This document shows positions 24,030 to 40,214 of a stretch of DNA of 64,000 bases, piece by piece. Numbering within the stretch: position 1 is the first letter of the stretch; each line of letters starts with the position of its first letter. This DNA is from Serinibacter salmoneus. GTDB lineage: Bacteria; Actinomycetota; Actinomycetes; Actinomycetales; Beutenbergiaceae. Made by a program: the position numbers and the translations under genes. The notes beneath the pieces are model-generated. The model was given only the letters and a program-made list of their open reading frames with translations. It searched no databases and was not told the DNA's origin. The DNA lies in assembly GCF_002563925.1 (NCBI RefSeq), contig NZ_PDJD01000001.1:1-64000 (forward strand), read 5' to 3'.

Positions 24030-24374
24030 CTACTCGCGCTCCAGCCGGCGTCGCCGCATCAGGACCGCTCCGGTCCCGAGCAGCCCTCCGGCCACGGCGA
24101 GGGCCACGACGGCGTCGCTCACCCCGGTCCCGGGCAGTTGCCCGGGTGGGGTGGGAGCGGGCGTCGGGGACGCGCTCCCGGTCGGTGTCGGCGGATGCTC
24201 GGCCGGCGGATCGGTCGGCGGATCGGTCGGCAACGGCGTGGGAGTCGGCACGATCGCCACATCGACCGCCACCTGCCCGTCCTCGACGGGCTGCGATGCG
24301 GCGATGCTCGCCGGTCCGGCGGTGAGCAGGGCAAGCAGCGTGAGCGACGCCATCAGCGGGCGGGGGCGCCTCAT
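24030..24374 (-). CDS. Small LPxTG-anchored surface protein (CscD-like)
   Basis: 114 residues. A signal peptide at about 1-26 (SLTLLALLTAGPASIAAS) precedes about 50 residues dominated by Pro, Thr and Asp. The sorting signal follows: LPGTG (about 80-84), a hydrophobic helix and the tail RRRRLERE. A sortase would link the Thr to peptidoglycan, leaving a short proline-rich stalk with no folded head. The start overlaps the stop of the DUF916-like gene (ATGA). The small LPxTG protein beside WxL and DUF916 genes matches the CscD component of csc surface clusters. Confidence 0.85.
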   Translation of the reverse strand: MRRPRPLMASLTLLALLTAGPASIAASQPVEDGQVAVDVAIVPTPTPLPTDPPTDPPAEHPPTPTGSASPTPAPTPPGQLPGTGVSDAVVALAVAGGLLGTGAVLMRRRRLERE

Positions 24375-25426
24375 CGGGCAGCCGCCTCGGCCGGATCGGG
24401 TGCCCCACCCTCGGCGCGTCCCTGTGCACGCGCCTCCGCCAGCATCGCGCGTAGCCGCCGCCGTCGCCGACGGCCCGAGTCGACCAGGGCCAGCACGATC
24501 AGGGCGATGCCGGCGAGCGTGAACAGTTGCGGCAGGGGCAGCGCCCAGGTGGTCGTGGCGGAGGAGACGATGACCGGAGTCACCTCGTCGGCGGAGCCCT
24601 CCAGGGTGACCTCGGTGGTGAGCGGGCCGAGCGGCCACACCCCCTGGAGGCGGGCGGTGACGACCTGACTGTCGCCCGGCAGCAGCTCGATCCGCTCGGC
24701 GCCGTCGGTGAACCCCAGCGGGGCGCTCGCGCCACCCGCGCTCGCCTCACCGGCGACGTCGAGGGCCACATTCCCCGCGTTGGCCAGGGTGACGGTCACG
24801 TCGAGCGCGCCGGGTCGCAGCGGGTTCCACTCGGTGTCGTAGGTGGCACTCAGGCCCGGCGCGGTGAGGGCCGGGACGATCTCGCCGGTCACGCGGGTGA
24901 GGACGCGGAACCCGACCCGGGAGTCCACGCGCACGGACTGCCCCTCGGCGTCGGCGCCGAGGTAGGCGAGGGAGGCCGCGACCCCCGCGGCGTGGTCCCC
25001 CGGGGTGGCGTTCTCCGGCACGGTGACGGTGAACGGGACGATCGCGGTCTCGCCGCTGGCCACGTCCACCGACTCGGGGATGTCGATCCAGGTGCCCGCG
25101 CCGGTGGAGTCGTGGTCCGCGGGCAGCATCGTGAAATAGCCGGCGTCGGTGAAGTAGGCGTCCGCGCCCTCCAGGGCGAACGTGGCGTCCACCGCGGAGA
25201 GATTGCGCACCGCGAGGTACTCCTGGACGCTCTCGCCCGGGTCCATTTCCTGCTCGATCCAACTGCGGTCGTCGGGCCCCTCGGCGGTGGCGGGATCCAC
25301 CGCCCAGGTGATCGTGGGGGCCTCCTGCCCGGAGGCTGCGGCCGGCGCCGCGACCAGGGCGGCCGCCAGGGCAGTGATCAGGGTGAGGGGGGCGAGGCCC
25401 GCGGTGATCGCGGTGACGCGTGGCAT
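24371..25426 (-). CDS. DUF916/WxL-interacting-like membrane-anchored protein (CscA-like)
   Basis: 351 residues. A signal peptide ends near APAAASG. An N-terminal Ig-like domain holds the DUF916-like pattern IEQEMDPGESVQEYLAVRN and IVPFTVTVPENATPGDHAAG. A second beta domain follows (about 185-285). A C-terminal helix near LPQLFTLAGIALIVLALVD then leads into a basic cytoplasmic tail. In Bacilli such proteins interact with WxL-domain partners on the cell surface. It lies between a WxL-like gene and the small LPxTG gene, which fits a three-part surface complex. Confidence 0.75.
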   Translation of the reverse strand: MPRVTAITAGLAPLTLITALAAALVAAPAAASGQEAPTITWAVDPATAEGPDDRSWIEQEMDPGESVQEYLAVRNLSAVDATFALEGADAYFTDAGYFTMLPADHDSTGAGTWIDIPESVDVASGETAIVPFTVTVPENATPGDHAAGVAASLAYLGADAEGQSVRVDSRVGFRVLTRVTGEIVPALTAPGLSATYDTEWNPLRPGALDVTVTLANAGNVALDVAGEASAGGASAPLGFTDGAERIELLPGDSQVVTARLQGVWPLGPLTTEVTLEGSADEVTPVIVSSATTTWALPLPQLFTLAGIALIVLALVDSGRRRRRRLRAMLAEARAQGRAEGGAPDPAEAAAR

Positions 25427-25453
25427 GGGTACTCCGTGGTCAGGGGCGGGGAG

Positions 25454-25489
25454 GCCGGGTGGGGGCGCCGACCGGTGCCCCCACCCGGC
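25454..25489 (-). terminator. Hairpin between WxL-like and DUF916-like genes
   Basis: GCCGGGTGGGGGC and GCCCCCACCCGGC form a perfect 13-base stem just after the WxL-like stop. Within one gene group it may attenuate rather than end transcription. Confidence 0.55.
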
Positions 25490-25495
25490 GATCGG

Positions 25496-26098
25496 TCACT
25501 CGAAGAGCGAGAGCGTCATGACCGAGGAGTAGTCCCCGGGCGCGACGGTGGTCTCGGTCTTCAGCGTCAGGTCGGCGGTGGCGGACCACTGACCCTCCTC
25601 CGCGACGGCGGCCGACTGCCAGGCACCGGTGAGCAGCACCTCGTCGGTCAGGCCCGGCCCGCCGTCCAGGGCCGGGTCCACCGGGTCACCCTCGATCACC
25701 GCGCCGAGGTCACCGGCGTCCACCATCCGCGGGGTCCAGCCGAGGTTGTCCGCGGAGATGGTGTCGCCGCCGCCGGTGGTGAAGTCCGAGGAGGACCCCA
25801 TCACGAACCAGGAGACGGTCGGGTCGATCTCGTCGGCGCTGCGGGTGTCGGTCACGGTGACGGTCGGCAGTTCGCCGGTGAACACGCGCGCGGTGGCGTC
25901 GGAGCCGTTCTCGGTCAGGGCCACCGAGTCGGCGGCCACGCTCATCGCGAGCACGCCGGGCTCCTCGATCGGGGTGATGCCGACCGTGACATCGACCCCG
26001 GAGGTGTCGTGCTCGGTATCGGCCAGGGCCATCGAGCCGACTCCGAGGAGCAGGACGGCGCCGCTCCCGGCGGCGAGGGTACGTAGCGTCTTTGCCAT
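25496..26098 (-). CDS. WxL-like secreted surface protein (CscB/C-like)
   Basis: 200 residues from ATG 26098, chosen for GAGGAA 8 bases upstream. A signal peptide covers about 1-26. The mature domain follows the WxL layout: a TVTVTDTR strand (about 85), then SWFVMGSSSDF (about 99) in the place of the first W-x-L, LGWTPRMV (about 120), and a C-terminal YSSVMTLSLFE where WxL domains end in a W-T-L strand. The tryptophan motifs are degenerate, so I call it WxL-like. Such domains bind peptidoglycan non-covalently. Its neighbours encode DUF916-like and LPxTG proteins. Confidence 0.7.
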   Translation of the reverse strand: MAKTLRTLAAGSGAVLLLGVGSMALADTEHDTSGVDVTVGITPIEEPGVLAMSVAADSVALTENGSDATARVFTGELPTVTVTDTRSADEIDPTVSWFVMGSSSDFTTGGGDTISADNLGWTPRMVDAGDLGAVIEGDPVDPALDGGPGLTDEVLLTGAWQSAAVAEEGQWSATADLTLKTETTVAPGDYSSVMTLSLFE

Positions 26099-26152: not shown

Positions 26153-27151
26153 CTACTTGCTGGAGAACGCGGCATCGAAGGCGGCATCCGGGGCGTCGAA
26201 CATGCTCTTGCGGACGAAGGCCAGTGCCTCGGGGGCCCCGACGAGCCGGTCCATGCCGGCGTCCTCCCACTCCACCGAGACCGGCCCGGAGTAGCCGATC
26301 GCGTTGAGCATCCGGAAGGCGTCCTCCCAGGGCACGTCCCCGTGACCGGTGGAGATGAAGTCCCAGCCGCGGCGCGGGTCGGCCCATGCCAGGTGGGAGC
26401 CGAGCCGCCCGTTGCGACCGTTGAGGCGACGCTTGGTGTCCTTGGCGTGCACGTGGTAGATCCGGTCGGCGAAGTCCCAGAGGAAACCGACCGGGTCGAT
26501 GTCCTGCCAGACCATGTGGCTCGGGTCCCAGTTGAGCCCGAAGTTCGGCCGGTCGGCCATGATCTCCATGACCCGCTTGGCGCTCCAGTAGTCGTAGGCG
26601 ATCTCGCTGGGGTGCACCTCGAGCGCGAACCGCACACCCTCGGCGTCGAAGACGTCCATGATCGGGTTCCACCGGTTCGCGAAGTCGGCGTAGCCGTCCT
26701 CGATCATGTCCGCCGGGACGGGCGGGAACATGGCCAGCACCTTCCAGATGCTCGAGCCGGTGAAACCGACCACCGTCTCGACGCCGAGCTTCGCGGCCAT
26801 CCGGGCGGTGTCCTTGATCGCCTCGGCGGCGCGCTGACGCACGCCCTCGGGGTCGCCGTCCCCCCACACCGCGGGGGAGAGGATCTCCTGGTGACGGCGG
26901 TCGATCGGGTCGTCGCAGACGGCCTGACCGGTGAGGTGGTTGGAGATCGCCACGATCTTCAGCCCGTGCCGGGCCATGAGCTCCTGGCGTCCGGCCACGT
27001 ACTCGGCGTCGTCCCAGCGGCTGACGTCGAGGTGGTCACCCCAGCACGCCAGCTCCAGGCCGTCGTACCCCCACCCGGAGGCGAGCGATGCCACCTCCTC
27101 CAGCGGCAGGTCGGCCCACTGTCCGGTGAAGAGGGAGATCGGTCGGGTCAT
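26153..27151 (-). CDS. Sugar phosphate isomerase/epimerase-like TIM-barrel protein
   Basis: 332 residues of the AP endonuclease 2/xylose isomerase-like family. Metal-site candidates are His and Glu in LEVHPSEIAYDY (about 170), LNWDPSHMVWQD (about 203), YHVHAKDTKRR (about 231) and VSVEWEDAGMDR (about 288). Members isomerise or epimerise sugars or cleave keto-sugars. AAGGAAAGG lies upstream of the ATG. It sits downstream of the oxidoreductase and ThuA genes on the same strand, and a role in the same sugar pathway is inferred. Confidence 0.85.
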   Translation of the reverse strand: MTRPISLFTGQWADLPLEEVASLASGWGYDGLELACWGDHLDVSRWDDAEYVAGRQELMARHGLKIVAISNHLTGQAVCDDPIDRRHQEILSPAVWGDGDPEGVRQRAAEAIKDTARMAAKLGVETVVGFTGSSIWKVLAMFPPVPADMIEDGYADFANRWNPIMDVFDAEGVRFALEVHPSEIAYDYWSAKRVMEIMADRPNFGLNWDPSHMVWQDIDPVGFLWDFADRIYHVHAKDTKRRLNGRNGRLGSHLAWADPRRGWDFISTGHGDVPWEDAFRMLNAIGYSGPVSVEWEDAGMDRLVGAPEALAFVRKSMFDAPDAAFDAAFSSK

Positions 27152-27193: not shown

Positions 27194-27877
27194 CTAGGAC
27201 TGGCGGGCGCGCCGACGGGCGATGACGACGGCGATGGCGGCCACCACCAGGGCGGCCACGATGAGGACCCAGACGACCGGGGAGATCCCGCCGTCCGCCT
27301 CGGTGGCGGAGACCGCGTCGTCGTCCGCGGAGGCCTCCGACTGCTCACCGTCGGCTGCCCCGTTCCCGTCGGCTGCCGGCTCCTCACCGTCGGCCGTCTC
27401 GTTCCCGGCCGCCTCGTCCTCGGCTGCGGCCTCGGCGTCCTCGCCACCGGCGGTGTCCTCAGCGGCGGGCGGCGCAACGGGGGCCGCGATGTCGAGTTCC
27501 ACCGTGCCCTCGTACTCGGCGGGCTCGGTGATCACGGTGGTGAGGGACCAGTGACCCTCCCCGAGCAAACCGGATTCGGAGACGTACCAGCCGACGCCCT
27601 GCGGGGAGGACCGTAGGGTCACCGGGCCGATCTCCTCACCGGCCTCGGAGGTGGCGGTGACCGTGATGGCCACGCTCTCCTCCACTGGGTGGTCGTCGTT
27701 CGCCCAGAAGATCAGGGCGTCGATCCCGCCGGCGCCGTCCGTGCCGACGTCGACCCGCAGGTCGCCGCCGTGCGCGGATGCCGCCGGGCCCGTCAGGACC
27801 GCGGCGGTCAGCAACCCGGCGAGCAGCGTGGCCAGGACCAGCCGCATCCGACTGGTCGCCGCCTTGATGTGCGTCAT
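27194..27877 (-). CDS. Secreted, membrane-anchored protein, possibly CopC/YtkA-like
   Basis: About 227 residues from the ATG at 27877, which follows GAGGTGAG; a longer GTG frame to 28066 reads through strong hairpins. A signal peptide ends near PAASA, so the mature chain would start with HGG. One compact beta domain follows (about 36-125), then a long Ala/Glu/Asp linker, a membrane helix (PVVWVLIVAALVVAAIAVVI) and a basic tail. A mature N-terminal His and this domain size resemble CopC or YtkA-like copper or adhesion domains, but I see no Met/His cluster, so this is tentative. Confidence 0.6.
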   Translation of the reverse strand: MTHIKAATSRMRLVLATLLAGLLTAAVLTGPAASAHGGDLRVDVGTDGAGGIDALIFWANDDHPVEESVAITVTATSEAGEEIGPVTLRSSPQGVGWYVSESGLLGEGHWSLTTVITEPAEYEGTVELDIAAPVAPPAAEDTAGGEDAEAAAEDEAAGNETADGEEPAADGNGAADGEQSEASADDDAVSATEADGGISPVVWVLIVAALVVAAIAVVIARRRARQS

Positions 27878-28076: not shown

Positions 28077-31000
28077 TCAGTCGCAGGTCACCTCCTCGAT
28101 GGTGACGCTGCGCTGAATACCGCCACGGAAGATCGGCGACCAGCCCTCGGGGATGGTCAGCACGGTTCCCGCGGAGGGGTAGGCGCGCACGGTGTAGGTG
28201 CCGACGGCCAGGTCGCCACCGTCCACCACCCTGCTGCCCGAGCGGACCTCGTACCGGTCCACCCCCTCGACGTCGTCGCCGACGATGCTGCCGCCGACCT
28301 CGCCGCACGCGTGGGTGACCGTCAGCGCCGGTGCCGCGATCTGACACGGGTAGGCGTCGATGACGACCTCCCGTTCCAGGGCGCCGCCCGCCGCAGCGGT
28401 CCACGCACCCGCGGCCTCGAGCACGTAGCCCGCCGCCGGGGTCGCCGTCACCGTGTAGGTGCCGGGCTCGAGCGCCATCGGGTCGATGTCGCTCATCCCC
28501 TCGGCGGTGACGACGTACTCGGCGATGCCCTCGCCCTCGACCCCGGTGATGGAACCGGGGACCTGGGAGATGGTCAGACCCTGGTAGGTGCACCGGGCCT
28601 GCACGACGCTCACCTGGGGTGCCGAGGCCACCGTGGCCTCCACGATGGTGAACGTGACGGTCTCGCCGTCCACGTTCTCCGCCCCGGCCGAGGCACGGAA
28701 GGCGACCGTGTGCTCGCCCACCTCGTCGATGCTGATCGGCGAGGTGTACTCCTGCCATCCTTCGCCGTCCACGTTGACCTCGCGGTACACCAGCTCACCT
28801 GCCGGGCCGCCCGCGGTCTCCACGGAGACCTCCACGGCACCGATGTAGCTGCCGTCGGGGCCGTTCGGCTCGGCCGGGTTCAGGGTGGCCGATACCGTCA
28901 GCGGCTCGCCGTCCTCGACCACCCGGAAGTAGTCGAAGCGTGCCGTGGCGTCGGCGCCGTCGCGAGCACCGAGGGCGAAGAGCCCCACCTTGGCCTCACC
29001 GAGCCCGGTGTGGGTGATCGGCGCGAAAGACTCCCACGTCTCACCGTCGGTGGAGTAGGACGCCGTGTAGGCCGTCCCCTCCTTGGCGATCCGCAGGTGC
29101 CACACGTCCTCGGTGACACCCGCGAGCTGCGGACGCGGGTTGAGCAACGACCCACCGGACTCTCCTCGGAACTCCAGGCGCGACGAGGTCGCGCTGTCGG
29201 AGATGTAGTCGAGCTTGAGGTAGGTGTCGTCGTCCACGTAGACGATCAGGCCGCCCTGCTCGTAGCCCTGGTCGAACTCCGAGCCGTCCACGAGGGTCTC
29301 GATCGTCCAGTCCTCACCCGGCTGGTCCTGCAGCACGATGTTGCTCACGGGGGTGTTGTTCCCCTGAGCGATGTCGTACGGCGAGGTGTCGATCTCCAGC
29401 CAGCCGTCGGCCAGGCGAAGGCCCTCGGCGTCGGGCCGCACGATGCTCCACTGGCACGTGTTGATCTCCGCACCATCGAACTCGTCGTCGGGGCCAGCGG
29501 CTCCGGCTGTGTCGTCCGGGGTGATGTGGAACCAGTCGAAGCGAGCATCGATGGGCTCGGTCGGCAGGGTGTCGTTCGCCCATGCCGCCAGGCCCACCCG
29601 CAGGTTCTCCAGGCCGTCCAGCGAACGCGTCTCGGGCAGCGTGGTGAACGCAGCGCCGTCAGTTGACCAGGCGCCGGTGAGGGTGCCGCCGGCGTTGGTC
29701 AGGCGCAGGTACAGCGTGGTGGGCACGCCCTGACCGAGGGCCGGAGTGTTCGTCTCGGAGGGCGAGCCGTCCTTCTCGGTGAGGAGCTGGACCACGCGCT
29801 GGGAGGAGTCGGGGGTCACGGTGCGACCCGCGACCATCAACTTGGCGTAGTTGTCATCGTCCTCGTAGAGCACGATCCCTGCCTGCTGCCAGCGCTCGAC
29901 TGCGTCGATGTCCACCTTCGTGGTGACCGTGAAGTCACCCTCCGGCAACTCCTGCAGCACGATGTTGGTCACGCCCGTGTTCCCGGCGTGGATGTCGGCC
30001 TTGCTCGTCGGGATGATCAGCGCGCTGTCCTCCACCCGCAGGTTCTGGTCGCGACGCACCACGTCGGTCCAGCGATCCTCGTCGAGCTCGTCGCCGAGGA
30101 AGTCGTCGCTGCGCCCGTCGAAGCACATCGGCAGCACGGCCGTCTCGGTGGTCACCGTGATGGTCTGGTAGACGTCGGTGTACGCACCGCCGCCGTCCGT
30201 GACCCGCACCTGCAGCCGGTACTCGCCCGGCTCGTCGTAGGTGAAGGAGAACGTCTCCCCACCTTCCTGGAAGCCGTCACCGAGACCCGCGTCCCACGCG
30301 TAGGTGAGGTCGGAGACCTCACCGTCCGGGTCGGTCGCGGACACCGAGGCATTCACGGTCCCCGGCGCGGTGAGCTCGGTCTGGGCGACGGTGAGGTCGA
30401 CCTCCGGGCGCTCGTTCTCGGTGACACCTCGACCGTCGAACTCCGCCCAGTTGACGTTCGTGCTGCCAGAGCTGACGAAGTACAGCGTGCCGGAGCCGCC
30501 GGGGTTCTCACTCAGCGGGACCACATCGGTGGTGACCCAGTTCTGCCAGCCGCCCGTGTTGGGAACCGGGATGCTCGCGAGCTCCGGACCCTCGGGGTCG
30601 TCCCAGCGCACCGAGACGGTGCCGGCCTTCGGCGCCGAGACGCGCAGCGCGATCCCGTCGACGTTGGTCAGGCTGATCGGCTCGAAGGCCCACCAGTCGT
30701 CGGCTTCGGTCCACCCGATGTTCAGACCGCCACCGGCCTCGTCCTCGGTGGGTTCGGTCTGCACGCCGGGGGTGCCGGTCGACTCCGAGCCCTCCAGGCG
30801 CCCGGTGGAGGTGAAGAACTCCGCCTGCAGCGTCTTGGGCTGCAGCACCTGCAGGTCGTTGGCGCTCAGGGGCGATCCCACGCTCCCGCCGTCATCGGTG
30901 TAGGTCGCCTCGACCACCCAGAAGATGTTCTCGGAGATCCCGTGACCCTCGTCGCGGGCGGTCTGCAGCATGCCGGAGCAGCCGAAGAGCTCCTCGAAGG

Positions 31001-33620
31001 GGTGGGCGTGGGAGTCGTGACCCAGCGAGGTGAACAGCTGCACGTCGGAGCAGTCGACCTCCCCGTCGGGGTCGTCGACGGCGATCTCGTAGGCCACCTG
31101 GTCCCCGAAGTCGAAGAATCCACCGTTCTCCGGGAAGGTGATGGAGATCGTCGGTGCCTCGTTCCCGACGACGATCGTCAGGTTGGCCACGCCGGTGTCA
31201 CCGTCGTCGTCGGTCACCACGAGCTGCGCGGTGTACACGCCCTCCTCGGTGTAGGTGTGGGTCGGGTTCGGGTCGTCGGTGGGTTCGGAGCCGTCGCCGA
31301 AGGTCCACTGCAGGCTGATCGGGTCACCCGCCGGGTGCCGCGTGCCCTCGGAGGAGAACTGCACGGTCAGCGGCGCCGGCCCGGAGGTGACGTCCGCCTC
31401 GGCCCGTGCCAGCGGCGCGGGGTTGCCCTTGACGTAGTTGATCTTGAAGACCTCGGAGGTGGCGTTGTTCCCACCGAATCCGGCGCCCCAGTCGATCACG
31501 TAGAGCGCTCCGTCGGGCCCGAAACTGAAGTCCATCGCCCGGTTGAAGCCGTGCTCCGGGTCCAGGATCCCCGGGAGGACCCGGTTGACCTGGAGGACCT
31601 CCTCGCGGTCCTCCTGGCCGAGCTGCACCGAGAACATGGTGCCGTGGTTCCACTCGGCCATGAGCGCCTTGCCGTCCCAGTACTCCGGCCACTTCACGTC
31701 CGAGTCCAGCTCGGGGTCGTAGGAGTAGGTCGGGCCGGCCATCGGTGCGCCGCCGCCACCGATGGCGGGCGCCACCGGGGAGTTGTTGGAGGTGTAGTAG
31801 ATCTCCGCCTCGATCGCCGGCGGGAGCTGCTCCAGGCCGGTGTTGTTCGGGGAGTCGTTCAGCGGACCGTTCTCGCAGTCGAACTTCTCACCGGACTGGC
31901 CGGTGGCGAAGTCGTAGTCGTTGTAGGCATCGTTCGGTCCGGTGCAGTACGGCCACCCGTAGTTGCCGGGTTCGGCCACCACGTTCCACTCCACGGTCCC
32001 AGCGGGCCCGCGGTTGGCGGCGCCGTTGCGGTTGTCGGGTCCGTAGTCGGCCACGAGGATGTTGCCGGACTCGTGGTCGAGGTCGATGCGGAACGGGTTG
32101 CGGAAGCCCATCGCGTAGATCTCGGGCTTGGTCAACGCGGTCTCGGGAGCGAACAGGTTCCCCTCCGGGATCGTGTAGCCGCCCTCCTCCAGCGGGGTGA
32201 TGCGCAGCACCTTGCCGCGCAGGTCATTGGTGTTGCCGGAGGTGCGCTGGGCGTCGAAGTTCTTCCGGCCGGCCTGCTCGTCGATCGGGGTGAAGCCGTT
32301 GGACTGGAACGGGTTGGTGTTGTCACCCGTGGCCAGGATCAGGTTCCCGTCCTCGTCGAAGAGCATGTCGCCACCGGCGTGGCAGCACGTCTCACGCTGC
32401 GTGGGGACCTCCAGGATCGTCACGCCGGTCTCCTCGGGGATGTACCCGAGGTCGAAGTCGTAGGTGAAGCGGGTCAGCACGTTGTGCGGTCCCACCTCAC
32501 CGACGTCCTCCGGGGACCAGTACAGGAAGACCCACCCGTTGGACTCGAAGGCCGGGTCCAGGACGATGCCCAGGAGCCCGTCCTCGTTGCCCTGGGTGAC
32601 GTCCAGGTCCAGCACCGTGGAGGTGATGGAGGTCTCGGGGTCGATCTCGCGCACCCGACCGTCACGCTCGATGTAGTAGACGGTGCCGTCGTCGGCCACG
32701 TCCAGCGCCATCGGGTTGGAGGTCGCGTCGTCCAGGGAGACCTTCTCGAAGCTGTCGCTCTGGGTGGCGGAGCAGTCACTGTCCACGGCGCCCGCCGCGG
32801 TCTGGATCCCGCCGAGCAGGTGCTCCAGGAACTCCGGCTCCTCGAACGAGGCATCGGTGTGACCGCCGCCGGTGTACCAGGAACGGCCCCCGTCGAACGG
32901 GTGACACCAGGCGATCGGGTGGTCGTGACCCATGGCGCCGCCGCCGGCGTTGTAGGTGGTCTCATCCAGGCTCGCCAGGACGTGCACGTCCGTGCGAGGC
33001 GACTCGCGGAAGTTGTACCACTCGTCGAAGCGGACCCATTCCTCGTCCAGGTGGTCGGTGGAGTCGTGGGCGTGGTCCTCCACGATCACGGTGGCGGTCT
33101 GCTGCGCCGGGTGGTTGGCGAAGTAGGCGCCCACGAGCTCGCCGTACCACGGCCAGTCGTACTCGGTGTCGGAGGCGGCGTGGATGCCCGCGTAGCCGCC
33201 GCCGTTCTGGATGTAGGACTCGAACGCGTCCTGCTGGTCGCCGTTCAGCACGTCACCCGTGGTGGACAGGAACACCACTGCCTCGTACTGGGCGAGGTTC
33301 TCCTCGGTGAACTGGGTGGCGTCCTCAGTGGCGGTGACCGAGAAGTTGTTCTCCTCGCCGAGCTGCTCGATCGCGGCGATGCCGGCGGGGATCGAGCCGT
33401 GCCGGAAGCCGGCGGTCTTGGAGAAGACGAGGACGTCGAAGTCGGCGGTCTCCTCCTCCGCCTCCGCGGCGGGGGCAGGGAGGGCGCTGTCGTCGGATTC
33501 GGGTTCGGCCATGGCCGGCGCGGCCATGGCGAACGCGAGCGGTATCGCGATGGTTGTGGCGGCGAGAGCCGCGACCGTCCGCCGCACGGCGGATGGTCTG
33601 CTCAAGAGCACGTTCTGCAC
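28077..33620 (-). CDS. Giant secreted ThuA / glucose-sorbosone dehydrogenase / PKD / CBM6-like protein
   Basis: 1847 residues from GTG 33620 (AAAGGAG upstream). The frame is open to 35042 but would then cross the oxidoreductase gene. In order: signal peptide to about 38; ThuA domain (about 58-275; VLVFSKTAGFRHGSIPAGI, GGGYAGIHAASDTEYDWPWY); a glucose/sorbosone dehydrogenase beta-propeller (about 290-730; ETCCHAGGDMLFDEDGNLIL); PKD (about 740-820); a CBM6-like module (about 930-1070); a second PKD; two concanavalin-like DUF1349-type domains (about 1170-1570); an Ig-like domain and two short C-terminal repeats. No LPxTG or membrane anchor follows. It probably oxidises or binds an extracellular carbohydrate. 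Cofactor and substrate are unknown. Confidence 0.88.
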   Translation of the reverse strand: MQNVLLSRPSAVRRTVAALAATTIAIPLAFAMAAPAMAEPESDDSALPAPAAEAEEETADFDVLVFSKTAGFRHGSIPAGIAAIEQLGEENNFSVTATEDATQFTEENLAQYEAVVFLSTTGDVLNGDQQDAFESYIQNGGGYAGIHAASDTEYDWPWYGELVGAYFANHPAQQTATVIVEDHAHDSTDHLDEEWVRFDEWYNFRESPRTDVHVLASLDETTYNAGGGAMGHDHPIAWCHPFDGGRSWYTGGGHTDASFEEPEFLEHLLGGIQTAAGAVDSDCSATQSDSFEKVSLDDATSNPMALDVADDGTVYYIERDGRVREIDPETSITSTVLDLDVTQGNEDGLLGIVLDPAFESNGWVFLYWSPEDVGEVGPHNVLTRFTYDFDLGYIPEETGVTILEVPTQRETCCHAGGDMLFDEDGNLILATGDNTNPFQSNGFTPIDEQAGRKNFDAQRTSGNTNDLRGKVLRITPLEEGGYTIPEGNLFAPETALTKPEIYAMGFRNPFRIDLDHESGNILVADYGPDNRNGAANRGPAGTVEWNVVAEPGNYGWPYCTGPNDAYNDYDFATGQSGEKFDCENGPLNDSPNNTGLEQLPPAIEAEIYYTSNNSPVAPAIGGGGAPMAGPTYSYDPELDSDVKWPEYWDGKALMAEWNHGTMFSVQLGQEDREEVLQVNRVLPGILDPEHGFNRAMDFSFGPDGALYVIDWGAGFGGNNATSEVFKINYVKGNPAPLARAEADVTSGPAPLTVQFSSEGTRHPAGDPISLQWTFGDGSEPTDDPNPTHTYTEEGVYTAQLVVTDDDGDTGVANLTIVVGNEAPTISITFPENGGFFDFGDQVAYEIAVDDPDGEVDCSDVQLFTSLGHDSHAHPFEELFGCSGMLQTARDEGHGISENIFWVVEATYTDDGGSVGSPLSANDLQVLQPKTLQAEFFTSTGRLEGSESTGTPGVQTEPTEDEAGGGLNIGWTEADDWWAFEPISLTNVDGIALRVSAPKAGTVSVRWDDPEGPELASIPVPNTGGWQNWVTTDVVPLSENPGGSGTLYFVSSGSTNVNWAEFDGRGVTENERPEVDLTVAQTELTAPGTVNASVSATDPDGEVSDLTYAWDAGLGDGFQEGGETFSFTYDEPGEYRLQVRVTDGGGAYTDVYQTITVTTETAVLPMCFDGRSDDFLGDELDEDRWTDVVRRDQNLRVEDSALIIPTSKADIHAGNTGVTNIVLQELPEGDFTVTTKVDIDAVERWQQAGIVLYEDDDNYAKLMVAGRTVTPDSSQRVVQLLTEKDGSPSETNTPALGQGVPTTLYLRLTNAGGTLTGAWSTDGAAFTTLPETRSLDGLENLRVGLAAWANDTLPTEPIDARFDWFHITPDDTAGAAGPDDEFDGAEINTCQWSIVRPDAEGLRLADGWLEIDTSPYDIAQGNNTPVSNIVLQDQPGEDWTIETLVDGSEFDQGYEQGGLIVYVDDDTYLKLDYISDSATSSRLEFRGESGGSLLNPRPQLAGVTEDVWHLRIAKEGTAYTASYSTDGETWESFAPITHTGLGEAKVGLFALGARDGADATARFDYFRVVEDGEPLTVSATLNPAEPNGPDGSYIGAVEVSVETAGGPAGELVYREVNVDGEGWQEYTSPISIDEVGEHTVAFRASAGAENVDGETVTFTIVEATVASAPQVSVVQARCTYQGLTISQVPGSITGVEGEGIAEYVVTAEGMSDIDPMALEPGTYTVTATPAAGYVLEAAGAWTAAAGGALEREVVIDAYPCQIAAPALTVTHACGEVGGSIVGDDVEGVDRYEVRSGSRVVDGGDLAVGTYTVRAYPSAGTVLTIPEGWSPIFRGGIQRSVTIEEVTCD

Positions 33621-33718: not shown

Positions 33719-34942
33719 TCAGGCCGGGCTGTGCACCTCCTTCCGGGTGGACGGGTCGGTGGCGGCCTGGCCGGTGCCGGACACGGCGAGCCAGGTGCCG
33801 GTCGCAGCGCTGCGCTCGACGGCGTCGAGCACCCGCTGGACAGCGAGGCCGTCGGCGAACGACGGCGTGGGCTGGGACCCCTCGGCCAGTGCCGTGACGA
33901 GGTCGACGGCCTGGTGGGTGAAGCCGTGCTCGTAGCCCAGCCCGTGGCCGGGGGGCCACCAGGCGGCCACGAACGGGTGCCCCGGTTCGGTCACGACGAT
34001 CCGCCGGAAGCCCGCGCGCTCGGCGACCTCCTCGGCGTCGTAGACGTGCAGCACGTTCATGTCCTCGAAGTCGAAGGCGAGGGAGCCGCGCGAGCCGTTG
34101 ATCTCGATGCGGATCGCGTTCTTGCGGCCCTGGGCGAACCGGGTGGCGGTGAACACGCCGTTCCCGCCGCCGGACAATCGCGCGAGGAAGGCGGCGGAGT
34201 CGTCCACGGTGACCGGCCCCATCCCCTCCCCGGCGGTGGCGGACAGGCCGGCGGCGGAGGCGGCGATGGGGCGCTCGGCCACGAAGGTGTCCAGCATCCC
34301 GGTGACGGCGGTGATCTGCTCCCCGGTGATGAACTGCGCCAGGTCGATCACGTGCGCGCCGATGTCCCCCAGCGCGCCGGAGCCGGCCTTGGACTTGTCC
34401 AGACGCCAGCTCAGGGGGGCGCTCGGGTCGCTCAGCCAGTCCTGCAGGTAGTCGGCGCGCACGTGGCGGATCTGCCCGAGGGCGCCCTCGGCCACGAGCT
34501 GGCGCGCGAGCTGGATGGCGGGCACCCGGCGGTAGGTGAAGCCGACCATCGCGCGCACGCCGTGCTCGGCGGCGCTCGCGGCGGCGGCGGCCATGGCCTC
34601 GGCCTCGGCCACGGAGTTGGCCAGCGGCTTCTCGCACAGCACGTGCTTGCCGGCCTCCAGGGCCGCGATGGCGATCTCCGCGTGGGTGTCCCCTGGTGTG
34701 CAGACGTCGACCAGGTCCACGTCGTCGCGGGTGAGCATGGTGCGCCAGTCGGTGGTGGTCTCGGCGAAGCCGAACCGCGCGGCCGCCGCGGTGACGGCCT
34801 CGGCGTTGCGACCGGCCAGGAGCGTGAGCTCGGGGTGCAGCGGGAGGGTGAAGAAGCGGGGGGCGGTGTTCCAGGCGTGTGCGTGGACGGCGCCCATGAA
34901 GGAGTAGCCGACCATCCCGACACCGAGGCGTGCGTAAGTCAT
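33719..34942 (-). CDS. Gfo/Idh/MocA-family oxidoreductase
   Basis: 407 residues. The N-terminal Rossmann fold begins GVGMVGYSFMGAVHAHAW (about 8-25), followed by VDVCTPGDTHAEIAIAALEA and the catalytic-region HVLCEKPLANS with its EKP motif (about 100). The C-terminal domain contains GDIGAHVIDLAQFITGE. The family oxidises sugars, inositols or glycosides with NAD(P). It lies between the transporter genes and the ThuA-GSDH gene, like ThuB beside ThuA in rhizobial trehalose loci, so oxidation of a glycoside at C3 is a reasonable hypothesis. Start ATG 34942 follows AAAGGA. Confidence 0.92.
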   Translation of the reverse strand: MTYARLGVGMVGYSFMGAVHAHAWNTAPRFFTLPLHPELTLLAGRNAEAVTAAAARFGFAETTTDWRTMLTRDDVDLVDVCTPGDTHAEIAIAALEAGKHVLCEKPLANSVAEAEAMAAAAASAAEHGVRAMVGFTYRRVPAIQLARQLVAEGALGQIRHVRADYLQDWLSDPSAPLSWRLDKSKAGSGALGDIGAHVIDLAQFITGEQITAVTGMLDTFVAERPIAASAAGLSATAGEGMGPVTVDDSAAFLARLSGGGNGVFTATRFAQGRKNAIRIEINGSRGSLAFDFEDMNVLHVYDAEEVAERAGFRRIVVTEPGHPFVAAWWPPGHGLGYEHGFTHQAVDLVTALAEGSQPTPSFADGLAVQRVLDAVERSAATGTWLAVSGTGQAATDPSTRKEVHSPA

Positions 34943-34965
34943 CGTGGAGTCCTTTGGTGAGAGGA

Positions 34966-35053
34966 GGGCCGTGTCCGACGGTGCGGCCGGAGCGTCGGAC
35001 ACGGCCCCGGGGTGGGGACCTCGTGGGCCGCGGGGTTCGCACCCGCGGCCCAC
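34966..35053 (-). terminator. Two hairpins between binding-protein and oxidoreductase genes
   Basis: GGGCCGTGTCCGAC with GTCGGACACGGCCC (34966-35007, 14-base stem) and GTGGGCCGCGGG with CCCGCGGCCCAC (35023-35053, 12-base stem). Together they fill the gap after the rbsB-like stop. They may end the transporter transcript or protect it from exonucleases. Confidence 0.6.
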
Positions 35054-35060
35054 GGGGTGA

Positions 35061-36137
35061 TCAGGAGTCGAAGGAGGTGGGCAGGTACTCCTCGACGTTC
35101 TCCGCGGTCACGACCGGGGCGAACAGCTGGATCTCGCGCGGCACGCCGTAGGTCTCGATGTCGCTGAGGGACTTGCCCTGCACGATCAGGCGCGCCAGCT
35201 GGATGCCGTCGGCGGCCTGAGTGGAGGGGTAGACGACCGTGGCCTGCAGCACCGTGTCGCCCGCCTGAATGTCCTCCATCACGTTGCGCGAACCGGCGCC
35301 GCCGACCATGAAGAACTCATCCCGGCCGGCGTTCTCGATGGCGGCCATGACGCCGATGCCCTGGTCGTCGTCGTGGTTCCAGATGGCGTCGATCTGCGAC
35401 TCGGACTGCAGGAGGTTGGAGGTGGCGGTCTCCCCGCCCTGGACGGTGAAGTCGGCTGCCACGCGGGCGTCCACGTCCAGGCCGCAGTCGCTCAGCGCGT
35501 CGGCGAAGCCCTGGCTGCGGTCCTGGGTCAGGGGCAGGGAGTCGATACCGGCGATCTCGGCGACCACCGCATCCGGGTTGTCCCCGAGCTGCTCGCAGAT
35601 GTAGGTCCCGGCCGAGACCCCCATGCCGTAGTTGTCGCCGAGGATCGTGGTGCGGGAGGCGAACGGGCTGGAGAACTCCCGGTCCACGTTCACCACCGGG
35701 ATGCCGGCCTCCATCGCGTCGATCGCGACCTCGGTCAGCGCCGCCCCGTCGAAGGGCAGCAGCACGATGGCGTCCACGCCCTCGTTGATGAACTGCTCGA
35801 TCTGGCTGATCTGCAGGTTGACGTCGTTGGTGGCCTCGGCCTGCCGCAGCTCCACGTCCGGGTAGGAGTCGGCCATCGCGATGGCGTTCTTCGTGATGGC
35901 GCCCATCCAGCCGTGGTCGGCGGCGGGAGCGGAGAAGCCGATGACGACCTTGTCACCCTCGGCGTCGTTGGAGGAGCCGGTGGCCTCGGTGGAGCCGCCG
36001 TCGCCGGACTCGGAGGACTCCTGCGACTCGGTCTCGGCGGGTGCGGCCTCGTTGGAGGTGCAGGACGCCAGCACCAGCGCGGAGGCGGCGGCCATGGCGG
36101 CGACGGAGGCGACGGGCTTCAGGCGGGAGGTGAACAT
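35061..36137 (-). CDS. Ribose-type ABC transporter substrate-binding lipoprotein
   Basis: 358 residues. The lipobox LASC (Cys about 26) is followed by a Ser/Glu/Gly linker to about 62. A periplasmic-binding-protein family 4 domain comes next (VVIGFSAPAADHGWMGAITK, GVDAIVLLPFDGAALTEVAI, IPVVNVDREF, AIWNHDDDQGIGVMAAIENA). This RbsB-like type binds pentoses, hexoses or related compounds. An AAAGGAGAT ribosome site precedes ATG 36137. It is the third transporter gene, 153 bases after the permease gene. Confidence 0.92.
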   Translation of the reverse strand: MFTSRLKPVASVAAMAAASALVLASCTSNEAAPAETESQESSESGDGGSTEATGSSNDAEGDKVVIGFSAPAADHGWMGAITKNAIAMADSYPDVELRQAEATNDVNLQISQIEQFINEGVDAIVLLPFDGAALTEVAIDAMEAGIPVVNVDREFSSPFASRTTILGDNYGMGVSAGTYICEQLGDNPDAVVAEIAGIDSLPLTQDRSQGFADALSDCGLDVDARVAADFTVQGGETATSNLLQSESQIDAIWNHDDDQGIGVMAAIENAGRDEFFMVGGAGSRNVMEDIQAGDTVLQATVVYPSTQAADGIQLARLIVQGKSLSDIETYGVPREIQLFAPVVTAENVEEYLPTSFDS

Positions 36138-36242
36138 GAGATCTCCTTTGATTCGTGTCGGGGCGTCGGAGCGGCCGCGGGCGCGTCAGGGCGCGCGAGG
36201 CCACCCGTGGGTGGTGGTGCGTCGGTTGTGTGGTCAGGGTCG

Positions 36243-36260
36243 GCGCACGTCAGCGTGCGC
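36243..36260 (-). other. Hairpin in the permease/binding-protein gap
   Basis: GCGCACG-tcag-CGTGCGC lies within the 153-base gap downstream of the permease stop. The rest of the gap holds only the AAAGGAGAT ribosome site of the binding protein. It may help set different mRNA levels of the two parts. Confidence 0.45.
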
Positions 36261-36290
36261 AGGGCGAGTGTGGGCGCTGTGGTTGAGGAT

Positions 36291-37331
36291 TCATCCACCG
36301 CCCTTGGCTAGGCCGCGCTCGGCGAAGCGCTGCTGTAGGAGGACGGCGGCGACGATGATGATGCCCTTGGCCACGGCCTGCGCCGAGATCGACATGTTGT
36401 TCTGGGTGAAGACGTTGCTCAGCATCGTGAAGATCAGGACGCCGAACACGGTGCCCACGATCGTGCCGCGCCCGCCCGCCAGCAGGGTGCCGCCGACGAC
36501 CACGGCCGCGATTGCGTCGAGCTCGTAGAGCATGCCGTGGGTGGAGGTGCCGGCCGTGGTGCGCGCGAGCATCATGATCGCGGCGATCCCGGCGGTGAAA
36601 CCCGCCAGCCCGTAGAGCATCATCGTGTGCCGGTTCACCTTGATGCCCGCGAGACGGGCGGCCTCGGCGTTCCCCCCGACGGCGATGGTGCGGCGGCCGA
36701 AGGTGGTGCGGTTGAGCAGGATCCACCCGAGCACGGCGACCACGGCGAACATGATGACCAGGACGGGCACCCCCAGGGGTTCGGCGCGGAAGAAGTCCAG
36801 GAAGGAGTCCACGTCCACGATCTGGGTCTGGCGGTTGGAGATCATCTCGGCCAGGCCCCGGGCGGAGACCATCATGGCCAGGGTGGCGATGAAGGCGACG
36901 ACCTTGCCGTAGGCGATGAGCAGACCGTTGATCAGGCCGCAGACCGTGCCCACCGCCAGCGCGGTGAAGACCATGACGATCCAGTGGGTGTTCTCGGCCA
37001 TGGTCTGGGTGGCCAGGGTGGAGGCCCAGACGGTGGCCAGGCCCATGACCGACCCCACGGACAGGTCGATGCCGCCTCCGGTGATGACGAACGTCATGCC
37101 GATGCTCAGCACGCCGATCACGGCGGCCAGGCGAAGGATCGTCATGAAGTTGTCGCCGTTGAGGAAACTGTCCCCGGCGGTGATCCAGCCGACCAGGGTC
37201 AGCGCGATCAGCGCGAGCACCAGGCCCGCGTTGCGCCCGGCCGCGCCCGAGAGGAAGCTCGGGCGGGCACCGCCGGAGGCCGATCCGTGTGTCACCTCCT
37301 TGGTCTCGGAGGTCTTCGTTGACCCGCTCAT
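36291..37331 (-). CDS. Ribose-type ABC transporter permease (RbsC-like)
   Basis: 346 residues with about nine or ten helices. The family signature GGGIDLSVGSVMGLA lies at about 85-99, GLINGLLIAYGKVVAFIATL follows at about 132-151, and a NAEAARLAGIKVNRHTMMLYGLAG stretch occurs around 217-240. It forms the membrane channel. The ATG overlaps the stop of the ATPase gene (ATGA), so the two are coupled. Confidence 0.93.
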   Translation of the reverse strand: MSGSTKTSETKEVTHGSASGGARPSFLSGAAGRNAGLVLALIALTLVGWITAGDSFLNGDNFMTILRLAAVIGVLSIGMTFVITGGGIDLSVGSVMGLATVWASTLATQTMAENTHWIVMVFTALAVGTVCGLINGLLIAYGKVVAFIATLAMMVSARGLAEMISNRQTQIVDVDSFLDFFRAEPLGVPVLVIMFAVVAVLGWILLNRTTFGRRTIAVGGNAEAARLAGIKVNRHTMMLYGLAGFTAGIAAIMMLARTTAGTSTHGMLYELDAIAAVVVGGTLLAGGRGTIVGTVFGVLIFTMLSNVFTQNNMSISAQAVAKGIIIVAAVLLQQRFAERGLAKGGG

Positions 37332-38872
37332 GCGGCACTTCCTTCCGTGTTGTGGGACTGCTCCATGACCAGGTCCAGGACCCGGTGCTCGGTGATCTGA
37401 TCGGCGGGGGCCTCGTGCACGATCCGGCCCTCGTTGACCACGAGCACCCGGTCGGACAGCCCGATGACCTCCTCGATCTCGCTGGAGACCACCAGGACGG
37501 CCACGCCCGCATCGGTGAGCTCCTTCACCAGGGCGTAGATCTCGGCGCGGGCGCCCACATCGACGCCGCGGCTGGGCTCGTCCAGGAGCAGGAGCCGGCA
37601 GCCATGTACCAGCCAGCGGGCCAGTAGTGCCTTCTGCTGGTTGCCGCCCGAGAGGGTGCGGATGGCCCGCTCGATGCCGGTCGGCCGCAGGTCCAGGGCC
37701 TGCGCCTTCTCCTGGGAGACCTCACGCTCGGCGCGTTCGTTGAGGAACCCGCTGTTGCCCATGCGGGCGAAGCTGGCCAGCGTGATGTTGCGGAACACGG
37801 CCTCGTCCAGCAGGAGGCCCTGGAACTTGCGCTCCTCGGGGCACAGGCCCACGCCGGCGGCCACGGCCTGCGGCACGGACCCGGGGCGCAGCCGGGTCCC
37901 GGCGATCTCCACGGTGCCGGACGACGCTCGCCGCGCCCCGTAGATGGTCTCCAGGATCTCCGAGCGCCCGGATCCGACCAGGCCTGCCAGGCCCACGACC
38001 TCCCCGGCGCGCACGCTCAGGTTGATGTCGTGCAGCAGCCCGGGCACCTGGACGTCGGTGACCCGCAGGACCGTCTCGGCGTTCTCGGGGACGCCCGGGC
38101 GCTGGGGGAAGGACCCGGCCGTGAGGCTGCGTCCGGTCATCAGGCGGATGAGGTCGGCGGTGGGTGTGGAGGCGACGTCGAGGTTCTCCCCGACGCTGGC
38201 GCCGTCCTTCAGGACCGTGATGCGATCGCCGATCTCCCGGATCTCCTCCATGCGGTGGGAGATGTAGACCACGGCCACGCCCTGGGCGGTGAGCTCGCGG
38301 ACCACCCGGAAGAGGTTCTCCACCTCACCGGAGTCCAGCACGGCCGAGGGCTCGTCCATCACGATGACCTTGGCCTCGTGGGAGAGGGCGCGGGCCATCG
38401 AGACGATCTGCTTCCCGGCCGCGGGCAGAGTGGCGACCTCGCGGTGCGGGGAGAGCTCACCGTGCCCGAGTCGGTGCAGGATCTCCCGGGTGCGGCGGGT
38501 GAGTTCGCGGCGCTGGGTGAAGCCGCCGCGGGCGAGCTCGTGACCGAGGTAGACGTTCTCGGCGATGCTCAGGCCGTCGACCACGTCGAGTTCCTGGTAC
38601 ATCGTGGCGACCCCGTGGGCGAGGGCCGCCACCGGGTTGTGGATGACGACGCGTTCGCCGTTGACGAGGATCTCGCCCTCGTTCGGCTGGTACGCGCCGG
38701 AGAGCACCTTGATGAGGGTGGACTTGCCGGCACCGTTCTGCCCGAGGAGGCAATGCACCTCGCCGGCGCGCACCTCGAGGTCCACGCCGTCCAGGGCACG
38801 GGCTCCCGGGAAGGTCTTGACGATGCCGCGCATCTGCAGCAGGGGCGGTTGTGGTGGGTCTGCACTGACCAT
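37328..38872 (-). CDS. Ribose-type ABC transporter ATPase (RbsA-like, duplicated)
   Basis: 514 residues with two ATPase halves. The first has Walker A GQNGAGKSTLIK (about 42), signature LPAAGKQIVSMARAL and VIVMDEPSAVLDSGE. The second has the degenerate Walker A GLVGSGRSEI (about 280), signature LSGGNQQKALLARWL (about 400) and LLLDEPSRGVDVG. This asymmetry is normal for RbsA/MglA. I chose ATG 38872 because TATGGT ends 6 bases upstream of it, giving a leaderless start behind a good promoter. Confidence 0.93.
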   Translation of the reverse strand: MVSADPPQPPLLQMRGIVKTFPGARALDGVDLEVRAGEVHCLLGQNGAGKSTLIKVLSGAYQPNEGEILVNGERVVIHNPVAALAHGVATMYQELDVVDGLSIAENVYLGHELARGGFTQRRELTRRTREILHRLGHGELSPHREVATLPAAGKQIVSMARALSHEAKVIVMDEPSAVLDSGEVENLFRVVRELTAQGVAVVYISHRMEEIREIGDRITVLKDGASVGENLDVASTPTADLIRLMTGRSLTAGSFPQRPGVPENAETVLRVTDVQVPGLLHDINLSVRAGEVVGLAGLVGSGRSEILETIYGARRASSGTVEIAGTRLRPGSVPQAVAAGVGLCPEERKFQGLLLDEAVFRNITLASFARMGNSGFLNERAEREVSQEKAQALDLRPTGIERAIRTLSGGNQQKALLARWLVHGCRLLLLDEPSRGVDVGARAEIYALVKELTDAGVAVLVVSSEIEEVIGLSDRVLVVNEGRIVHEAPADQITEHRVLDLVMEQSHNTEGSAA

Positions 38873-40205: not shown

Positions 40206-40214
40206 GAGGACTAA

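Follow-up and report, generated by a model that had tools for sequence, protein, structure and literature searches.

A WxL-like/DUF916 gene pair with a candidate LPxTG partner beside a sugar locus of Serinibacter salmoneus and in other Actinomycetota

Results

A trio of surface protein genes

We analysed a stretch of 64,000 nucleotides from the actinobacterium Serinibacter salmoneus (NCBI RefSeq assembly GCF_002563925.1, contig NZ_PDJD01000001.1, positions 1 to 64,000; hereafter the window), in which three genes on the reverse strand resemble the csc cell-surface clusters of lactobacilli. They encode a WxL-like protein of the CscB type (P0001; 25496..26098, 200 aa), a DUF916/WxLIP protein of the CscA type (P0002; 24371..25426, 351 aa) and an LPxTG protein of the CscD type (P0003; 24030..24374, 114 aa). 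By homology, the small protein is a member of the WxL family, the membrane protein a WxLIP and the third a sortase-type peptide. The original prediction, made from the letters alone, had placed these three frames in a row next to a sugar locus, and both statements were confirmed: the frames lie on the (-) strand, with 69 nt between the end of P0001 and P0002 and an overlap of 4 nt between the stop of P0002 and the start of P0003, and genes for an isomerase, an importer, a ROK-family regulator and ThuA proteins adjoin them. The N-termini of all three proteins look like signal peptides by eye.

The small protein is a divergent member of the WxL family

Comparison of the P0001 family (A1) with WxL proteins of Bacillota (A4) by hhalign gave a probability of 92.2 (E 5.8e-7, 139 columns), against probabilities of 0.8, 0.1 and 0.1 in three control comparisons, which bears out the WxL-like identity that had been proposed for 25496-26098. 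The alignment pairs motif 1 with motif 1, and YSSVMTLSLFE of P0001 with YKSTLTWNLVQ of a Terribacillus WxL protein. The Bacillota reference consisted of seven sequences from plasmid records, six of them annotated as WxL and one a hypothetical protein of Listeria grayi beside DUF916; they were sought there because single-protein comparisons with Pfam and NCBIfam were too weak to decide, and were taken by annotation or by position beside DUF916, not by a match to PF13731. The latter family was matched at E<=0.1 by 4/18 WxL-like relatives (best 4.3e-5) and above its cut-off by no protein in 24 genomes of the family to which Serinibacter belongs. A homologue on a Clavibacter plasmid, also beside DUF916, shares 59% identity with P0001 over 179 aa.

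In a set of 66 small proteins (65 relatives and the window copy), D-x-R, W-x-V, G-W-x-P and T-L-x-L are each invariant (66/66). P0001 has W-F-V as motif 1 (residues 97-99; 25802..25810, (-) strand; W and V invariant), LGWTP (25730..25744, (-); G, W and P invariant) and YSSVMTLSLFE as motif 2 (25499..25531, (-)), in which Leu occupies the position of the canonical second Trp. The degenerate tryptophans that had been noticed in WFV are therefore real, and the second motif, on which the earlier note was silent, is degenerate as well. P0001 lacks the canonical pair of W-x-L motifs with D-x-R-G before the first; it keeps D-x-R and has W-x-V and L-x-L in place of both W-x-L motifs, and we thus regard it as a homologue of the WxL family and not as a canonical WxL domain. 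Judged by the alignments, the actinobacterial small form has lost the second Trp throughout and has a fixed GWxP, which is absent at the corresponding place in the seven Bacillota sequences. The size of P0001 falls within the range of CscB (small secreted WxL proteins of about 190-280 aa). The L. grayi plasmid protein (L162 3794-4423), WxL-type and annotated as hypothetical, has degenerate motifs of its own (GYDV, VTVAV), so the loss of Trp in WxL proteins is not confined to actinobacteria.

Among the same 24 genomes, the P0001-like part often forms the C-terminus of proteins of 460-890 residues directly before DUF916. In large WxL-like proteins of this family motif 1 is looser, with Phe for Trp in two that were aligned, and one locus (L048) has two large WxL-like proteins before DUF916. 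At four loci (L056, L057, L059 and L062) proteins of 850-890 residues end in the WxL-like domain near apparent sugar ABC importers; we take their N-terminal part to resemble CBM48/CE1 esterase.

The membrane protein resembles a solved WxLIP

Compared with Bacillota DUF916, the P0002 family gave an hhalign probability of 97.8 (E 1.1e-12). PF06030 (WxLIP_PGBD) was matched at E<=0.1 by 15/16 aligned relatives (family A2; best 2.2e-8); DUF3324 was not among the 16 Pfam families matched at this threshold by the 16 members, and a missing HMM match excludes nothing. The AlphaFold2 model of P0002 (pLDDT 88.0) has two tandem Ig-like domains and then a predicted transmembrane segment, the arrangement of a WxLIP, and the length of 351 aa and the C-terminal helix (298-340) agree with CscA (a DUF916 protein of 320-380 aa with a transmembrane helix). 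Its best match in the PDB is chain C of 9i25 (Foldseek 1.6e-11), entitled 'WxLIP from Enterococcus faecium locus A bound to long WxL'. Structural alignment by VIA gave Z 13.2 with 9i25_C (rmsd 9.9, 225 aligned, model residues 38-295) and Z 13.3 with 9i1y_A (rmsd 9.6, 223 aligned, model residues 39-294); the large rmsd probably reflects a different angle between the two domains in the model. The next structural matches, Ig-like domains of GH123 and the chaperones FimC, PapD and Caf1M, have Z about 10-11 and cover mostly the first domain only. The DUF916-like identity that had been given to 24371-25426 is therefore supported both by profile comparison and by a solved WxLIP structure.

That these genes encode unrelated secreted Ig-like proteins, whose likeness to WxL and DUF916 is only compositional, might be read from the absent or subthreshold Pfam matches, but is very improbable: the profile comparisons are strong with near-zero controls and the motifs align one by one, the gene order is that of WxL-DUF916 pairs in Bacillota, and a solved WxLIP is the top structural match.

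The pair is conserved in Actinomycetota

Named genomes were scanned with an alignment of DUF916, by way of one conserved peptide, and the best 80 of 281 relatives were taken; a scan with a single peptide pattern says nothing of phyla that lack that peptide. The genera of the 80 (Microbacterium, Arthrobacter, Cellulosimicrobium, Micromonospora, Nonomuraea, Glycomyces, Bifidobacteriaceae and others) are presumably all Actinomycetota. Counts refer to 75 named loci, five others having been left out because the gene caller called no DUF916 there. A WxL-like gene lies immediately upstream of 69/76 DUF916 genes, with a product of 113-228 aa in 68 cases and of 423 aa in one, and within three genes of 70/76; two of the remaining six DUF916 genes lie at contig ends. 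All five left-out loci have both domains, adjacent in four of them, and at L068 about 3 kb separates DUF916 from the WxL-like frame upstream of it. Profile searches of the 24 same-family genomes found relatives of P0002 in 15 and of P0001 in 10. Of 198 genomes in the order, 49 have the WxL-like domain and 51 have DUF916, and every WxL-like genome (49/49) also has DUF916; 99 of 113 DUF916 matches (merged from 120) have, on the same strand, a WxL-like match that ends <1 kb upstream, and 99 of 138 WxL-like matches have DUF916 <1 kb downstream. The homology and the gene linkage are well supported by these sequence comparisons, according to which the WxL-like and DUF916 genes are a conserved pair in Actinomycetota. 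The actinobacterial branch suggested by the original prediction thus proved to be an actinobacterial variant, widespread across the phylum and not one local branch.

At four loci of Micromonospora and Verrucosispora (L114, L121, L130 and L142), proteins of 607-642 residues lie directly after DUF916; in three of the four, a signal peptide is followed by HGTLA, and these appear CopC-like by eye.

The LPxTG peptide carries a recurrent alternating motif

P0003 ends in LPGTG (24126..24140, (-)), followed by a hydrophobic stretch and an Arg-rich tail, and passes TIGR01167 above the cut-off. With 114 aa, LPGTG and a signal peptide by eye it agrees with CscD, a usual but not essential component of 90-140 aa, and the Serinibacter genome has three sortases. 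A match to NF053819 (EF2685/EF0750 family; 1.8e-6, below the model cut-off) was not used, since none of nine other LPxTG-type followers matches this family and the link may rest on composition.

A small LPxTG-type frame follows 10/89 DUF916 genes of relatives (nine with the 4-nt overlap) compared with 2/882 other genes, and the window is an eleventh case beyond these ten; the LPxTG gene of the window, too, escaped the gene caller used on the relatives' loci. All 11 small LPxTG-type followers have the pattern [VI]-x-[VI]-x-[VI]-x-[VI]-x-P, which reads VAVDVAIVP in P0003 (24246..24272, (-)). The same pattern is present in 18/25 frames of 60-260 aa that overlap the DUF916 stop by 4 nt (all from relatives, the window not among them) and in 0/87 after other genes; the regular expression was chosen after viewing the sequences, and these counts therefore describe recurrence and are not a blind test. 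Eight of the 18 have no LPxTG-type motif in the last 60 residues, and some have one further in. The gene-neighbour survey proposed with the original prediction thus showed that the pair is kept (99/113) and the LPxTG gene less often. At three loci (L128 4843-6327, L136 9887-11362 and L144 832-2259) DUF916 and the LPxTG peptide are fused, with four alternating V/I residues and without Pro.

The start segment of P0001 contains a similar stretch, GVDVTVGITP (25970..25999, (-)), a candidate exchangeable strand to which the AlphaFold2 model (pLDDT 87.0) assigns no strand; [VI].[VI].[VI].[VI] occurs within residues 21-65 of 60/66 small WxL-like relatives, and with Pro in 13/66. The likeness suggests that WxL or WxLIP may be the pairing partner of the peptide strand. 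The structural neighbours of the P0001 model (VIA) are donor-strand pilins and Ig-like domains of GH123 at Z 6-8.2, among them CfaE (Z 8.2) and FimG with its donor peptide (Z 6.5); 1/989 chains reached Z>=8, and a Z near 8 may, according to the tool's note, mean a common arrangement only. The structure prediction suggested earlier as a check therefore linked P0002 to a solved WxLIP, whereas no solved WxL chain was among the Foldseek and VIA matches listed for P0001. This is no evidence against the fold, because small and large WxL folds differ, according to PMC9772566, and the WxL of 9i25 is long. Nothing useful came from searching PDB sequences with three queries: the WxL-like profile, a single WxL protein of Bacillota and the Bacillota profile.

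Carried further, these likenesses would make the trio a donor-strand system, which we regard as rather unlikely. The WxL-like protein would have an incomplete Ig-like fold, the two-Ig WxLIP would be its membrane-bound chaperone, and the LPxTG peptide would replace the chaperone strand to give a wall-anchored complex or fibre, a replacement that the N-terminus of further WxL-like proteins could perhaps also perform. The recurrence of the motif after DUF916, its resemblance to a WxL N-terminal segment modelled without strand, the pilins near P0001 and the chaperones that rank after WxLIP for P0002 (Z about 10) all fit such a system, as does a WxLIP strand predicted to complete the WxL sandwich (Hassan et al., PMC10599100). 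However, the pattern was picked with the sequences in view, the Z near 8 may reflect a common arrangement, the GH123 Ig-like domains score about equally, and the motif is missing in 7/25 overlap followers while Pro is found in only 13/66 WxL-like N-termini. Chaperone-usher pili (FimC/FimG, CfaA/CfaB, CsuC/CsuA-B) have similar chaperone and pilin folds and an alternating hydrophobic donor-like peptide; unlike them, the window comes from a Gram-positive organism and has a sortase anchor, and the likeness would be one of working, not of membership. To our knowledge, an outer-membrane usher is not expected in a Gram-positive bacterium.

Large secreted proteins of relatives share a C-terminal domain

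In most relatives, large secreted proteins just upstream of the pair have in common a C-terminal domain (CTD) of about 97 residues with the consensus 'RCxGGKAYLxVxAxN...TPYGSKTxAxVAPGKS...FNTRxASxPAGxATV...YxAxSCG'. In a comparison of 18 members with Pfam and NCBIfam no family scored better than 0.0026, profile comparison with WxL revealed no detectable relation, and none of the seven fetched Bacillota stretches had a CTD match at E<=10. The PDB matches were to designed proteins, none of them with a matched stretch that passed by itself, and were discarded. With up to 19 matches per genome, this undescribed domain deserves a family entry of its own.

The CTD is present in 134 proteins called at loci L046-L145, in 133 of them at the C-terminus. 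At least one CTD protein is present in 63/75 named loci and in four of the five loci inspected separately, and 124/125 CTD proteins of the 75 loci lie within five genes of DUF916. These counts are in part built in, because 29 proteins of such loci served to train the model, and whole-genome searches are the fairer test; the order-wide figures rest on 150 CTD matches listed from the 198 genomes. At least 29 of these genomes have the CTD, and 25 of the 29 have the WxL-like domain, compared with about 7 expected (Fisher p 2e-14 on the 150 matches listed, uncorrected for kinship). A CTD ends <1 kb upstream of 29 of 38 WxL-like matches that were entered by hand, out of 138, as probable small proteins; leaving out five with open frames >330 aa gives 25/33, and counting as misses ten unentered short frames (most of them fragments, but also two of G140 and G193:C137) gives 25/43. 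Some genomes have a single WxL-like gene and yet many CTD matches among those listed (19 in G086, 9 in G088 and 8 in G065), a pattern that would fit a single platform with many clients.

Eight CTD proteins were sampled for their other domains: one has GH127, three GH43, one GH20 and one an MGH1-like domain, and two are without a catalytic domain; further domains in this sample are CBM, F5/8 and lectin-like. The Clavibacter plasmid has, in order, a sugar importer, a GH43 protein with an apparent CTD at its end, judged by eye, the WxL-like gene and DUF916. These data bear on the alternative that the trio is an adhesion platform for surfaces or hosts, as proposed for enterococci, with the sugar genes as incidental neighbours. 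We think this quite unlikely: a catalytic glycoside hydrolase domain (GH43, GH127 or GH20) is present in five of the eight sampled clients, with the MGH1-like protein as a sixth, sugar importers adjoin the pair in the window, in Clavibacter and, by eye, in several same-family loci, and the named genera of relatives are known mainly from soil and plants. In favour of adhesion are the F5/8, lectin-like and CBM domains that the large clients also bear, and the fact that it is the published reading of WxL clusters (PMC10599100, PMC9772566).

The sugar locus of the window and a candidate cargo

Upstream of the trio on the (-) strand lie a xylose-isomerase-like TIM barrel (26153..27151; PF01261), a candidate operon member; a secreted protein (27194..27877) in which an apparent N-terminal His follows the signal peptide, by eye, and which has a hydrophobic stretch at its C-terminus; a secreted protein of 1836 aa with matches to ThuA, GSDH, PKD, CBM6 and GH43_C2 domains (28077..33587), the candidate cargo; and a Gfo/Idh/MocA oxidoreductase with a sugar-type ABC importer of binding protein, permease and ATPase (33719..38833). 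A divergent ROK-family regulator and a second ThuA gene are on the (+) strand (38937..40883). Gaps between genes of no more than 199 nt suggest that the stretch from 38833 to 24030 may be a single operon. Scans for promoters and terminators gave no matches, which is uninformative at the local G+C, and Rfam and tRNA scans of the window gave none either.

The 1836-residue protein shares 48% identity with Nonomuraea proteins that have the CTD and stand directly before WxL-like and DUF916 genes. The match stops about a dozen residues into the CTD, in place of which the Serinibacter protein ends in two modules of its own of about 90 aa, 37% alike; such modules are found in 3/24 family genomes, one of them its own and the other two with weak matches. 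The isomerase has 69% identity to a copy near the Nonomuraea locus L135, there on the other strand. The protein at 27194-27877 has the mature N-terminus HGGDLRV by eye and no Pfam match at E<=0.01, and shares 40% identity over 101 aa with a Nonomuraea protein in a homologous locus; two homologous Nonomuraea loci also hold a regulator that appears ROK-like by eye. Given these relatives of the ThuA, His1, regulator and isomerase genes in Nonomuraea, the surface genes accompany the sugar locus in distant actinomycetes. In the protein at 27194-27877 and its relatives (L135 11709-12299 and L137 11703-12299), the apparent N-terminal His is possibly a mono-histidine copper site. In the Ang-2 copper protein (PMC12537917) a His1 domain is followed by HupE/UreJ_2 (PF13795), and the Serinibacter protein shares with it only the apparent His1.

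Elsewhere in the window, four genes for proteins of 796-900 aa (138-2528, 2588-5200, 40908-43577 and 51755-54457) lie within 55 kb and have paralogue-like N-termini, with likenesses such as '..PSFGEI..' and '..GRVTVYDAFR..'.

Discussion

The window trio has its nearest described counterparts in the csc clusters of Lactobacillus plantarum and its relatives, which likewise combine CscA (DUF916 and a transmembrane segment), the small WxL protein CscB and CscD, a 90-140-aa LPxTG protein, on one strand and in a sugar context (PMC1534035). In contrast to these clusters, the window has no CscC, Leu replaces the second Trp, GWxP is added, and the host belongs to the Actinomycetota. Of the set CscB/C, CscA and CscD put forward in the original prediction, CscB, CscA and CscD are thus present and CscC, the large WxL protein, is absent; with one WxL-like match in the genome, the arrangement is CscB-CscA-CscD and not the full set. 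With these qualifications the earlier interpretation largely holds, and neither of the outcomes named there as contradicting it was observed. The CscD peptides could not be aligned in 2006, and 'as yet unknown interactions' were ascribed to them (Siezen, PMC1534035). In the WxLIP-WxL systems of E. faecium (PDB 9i25, 9i1y; PMC10599100), to which P0002 aligns over both Ig-like domains at Z 13, a WxL-like partner gene adjoins as it does here; unlike there, PF06030 is subthreshold, DUF3324 is not matched in Pfam, and identity in the structural alignment is 12-14%. Plasmid pairs of Bacillaceae (Pontibacillus L154 and L160; Rossellomorea L161) likewise have a small WxL gene directly before DUF916, but their second motif is W-x-L or W-x-I.

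WxL proteins have been placed mainly in Lactobacillales and Bacillales (PMC5817068), including lactobacilli of bees (PMC4449606), and more than 91% of WxL sequences came from Firmicutes in a study whose available part does not discuss actinobacteria (PMC9772566); the word is also absent from the text of PMC1534035. According to PMC12537917, DUF916 often neighbours the Ang-2 copper protein, found there in Actinomycetota only; this is the only prior mention of actinobacterial DUF916 neighbourhoods that we found. In the literature searched, which did not extend to subscription journals and preprints, none of the titles listed dealt with WxL or csc clusters of actinobacteria.

We propose, with a probability of roughly 0.6, that the trio is a minimal actinobacterial WxL/WxLIP (csc) complex, which retains large secreted carbohydrate-active proteins of the same locus. 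All three products would be exported, and the two Ig-like domains of WxLIP would bind the WxL-like domain, as in the bound WxLIP-WxL structure solved for E. faecium; two E. faecium WxL proteins bind a transmembrane partner in vitro, as cited in PMC5817068. The WxL-like domain would be located on the cell wall, and the LPxTG peptide, joined covalently to peptidoglycan by sortase, would hold the complex through its V-x-V-x-V-x-I-x-P strand. Such a platform could keep the large carbohydrate-active proteins at the cell surface, with the CTD as the likely docking part in most relatives; in the window, the client would be the 1836-residue ThuA/GSDH/CBM6 protein, and the neighbouring sugar importer would take up the breakdown products. 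The linkage of the genes is, we infer, best explained by display of enzymes at the cell surface; that the CTD serves for docking and that the peptide acts through its strand are offered here as hypotheses. A more far-reaching version, in which a Gram-positive donor-strand system forms one platform that captures many plant-polysaccharide enzymes through the CTD, comparable to a cellulosome made of unrelated parts, seems doubtful to us.

Several observations weigh against the proposed retention complex. P0001 has no Pfam match at E<=1, and P0002 matches PF06030 at E 2.9e-4 with 21.3 bits, below the cut-off of 27.3. A large WxL protein (CscC) was not found in the Serinibacter genome, where the profile search gave one WxL-like match, fewer than the two or more WxL genes per cluster described in PMC10599100. 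The strict scan found no small LPxTG frame after 79/89 DUF916 genes. Four of the 29 CTD genomes are without both the WxL-like domain and DUF916, and 70 of the 150 CTD matches listed lie >20 kb from the entered WxL-like genes. The CTD itself had no match in the Serinibacter genome, and the large protein of the window is without it, so that docking there cannot use the same domain; attachment of the 1836-residue protein may then differ from CTD docking, or there may be none. Finally, the WxLIP helix has been argued to enter the host membrane and not the bacterial one (PMC10599100), whereas the present proposal, like PMC1534035, assumes anchoring in the bacterial membrane.

The WxL/csc family, described mainly from Lactobacillales and Bacillales, is widened by a widespread actinobacterial form and linked to glycoside hydrolases that bear an undescribed CTD; in the Clavibacter record, the WxL-like partner of this form is annotated as 'hypothetical protein'. 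The peptide motif gives a concrete and testable shape to the idea that the LPxTG component may hold the complex. Should the docking role prove true, this would be a new way for actinomycetes of soil and plants to keep polysaccharide-degrading enzymes on the cell.

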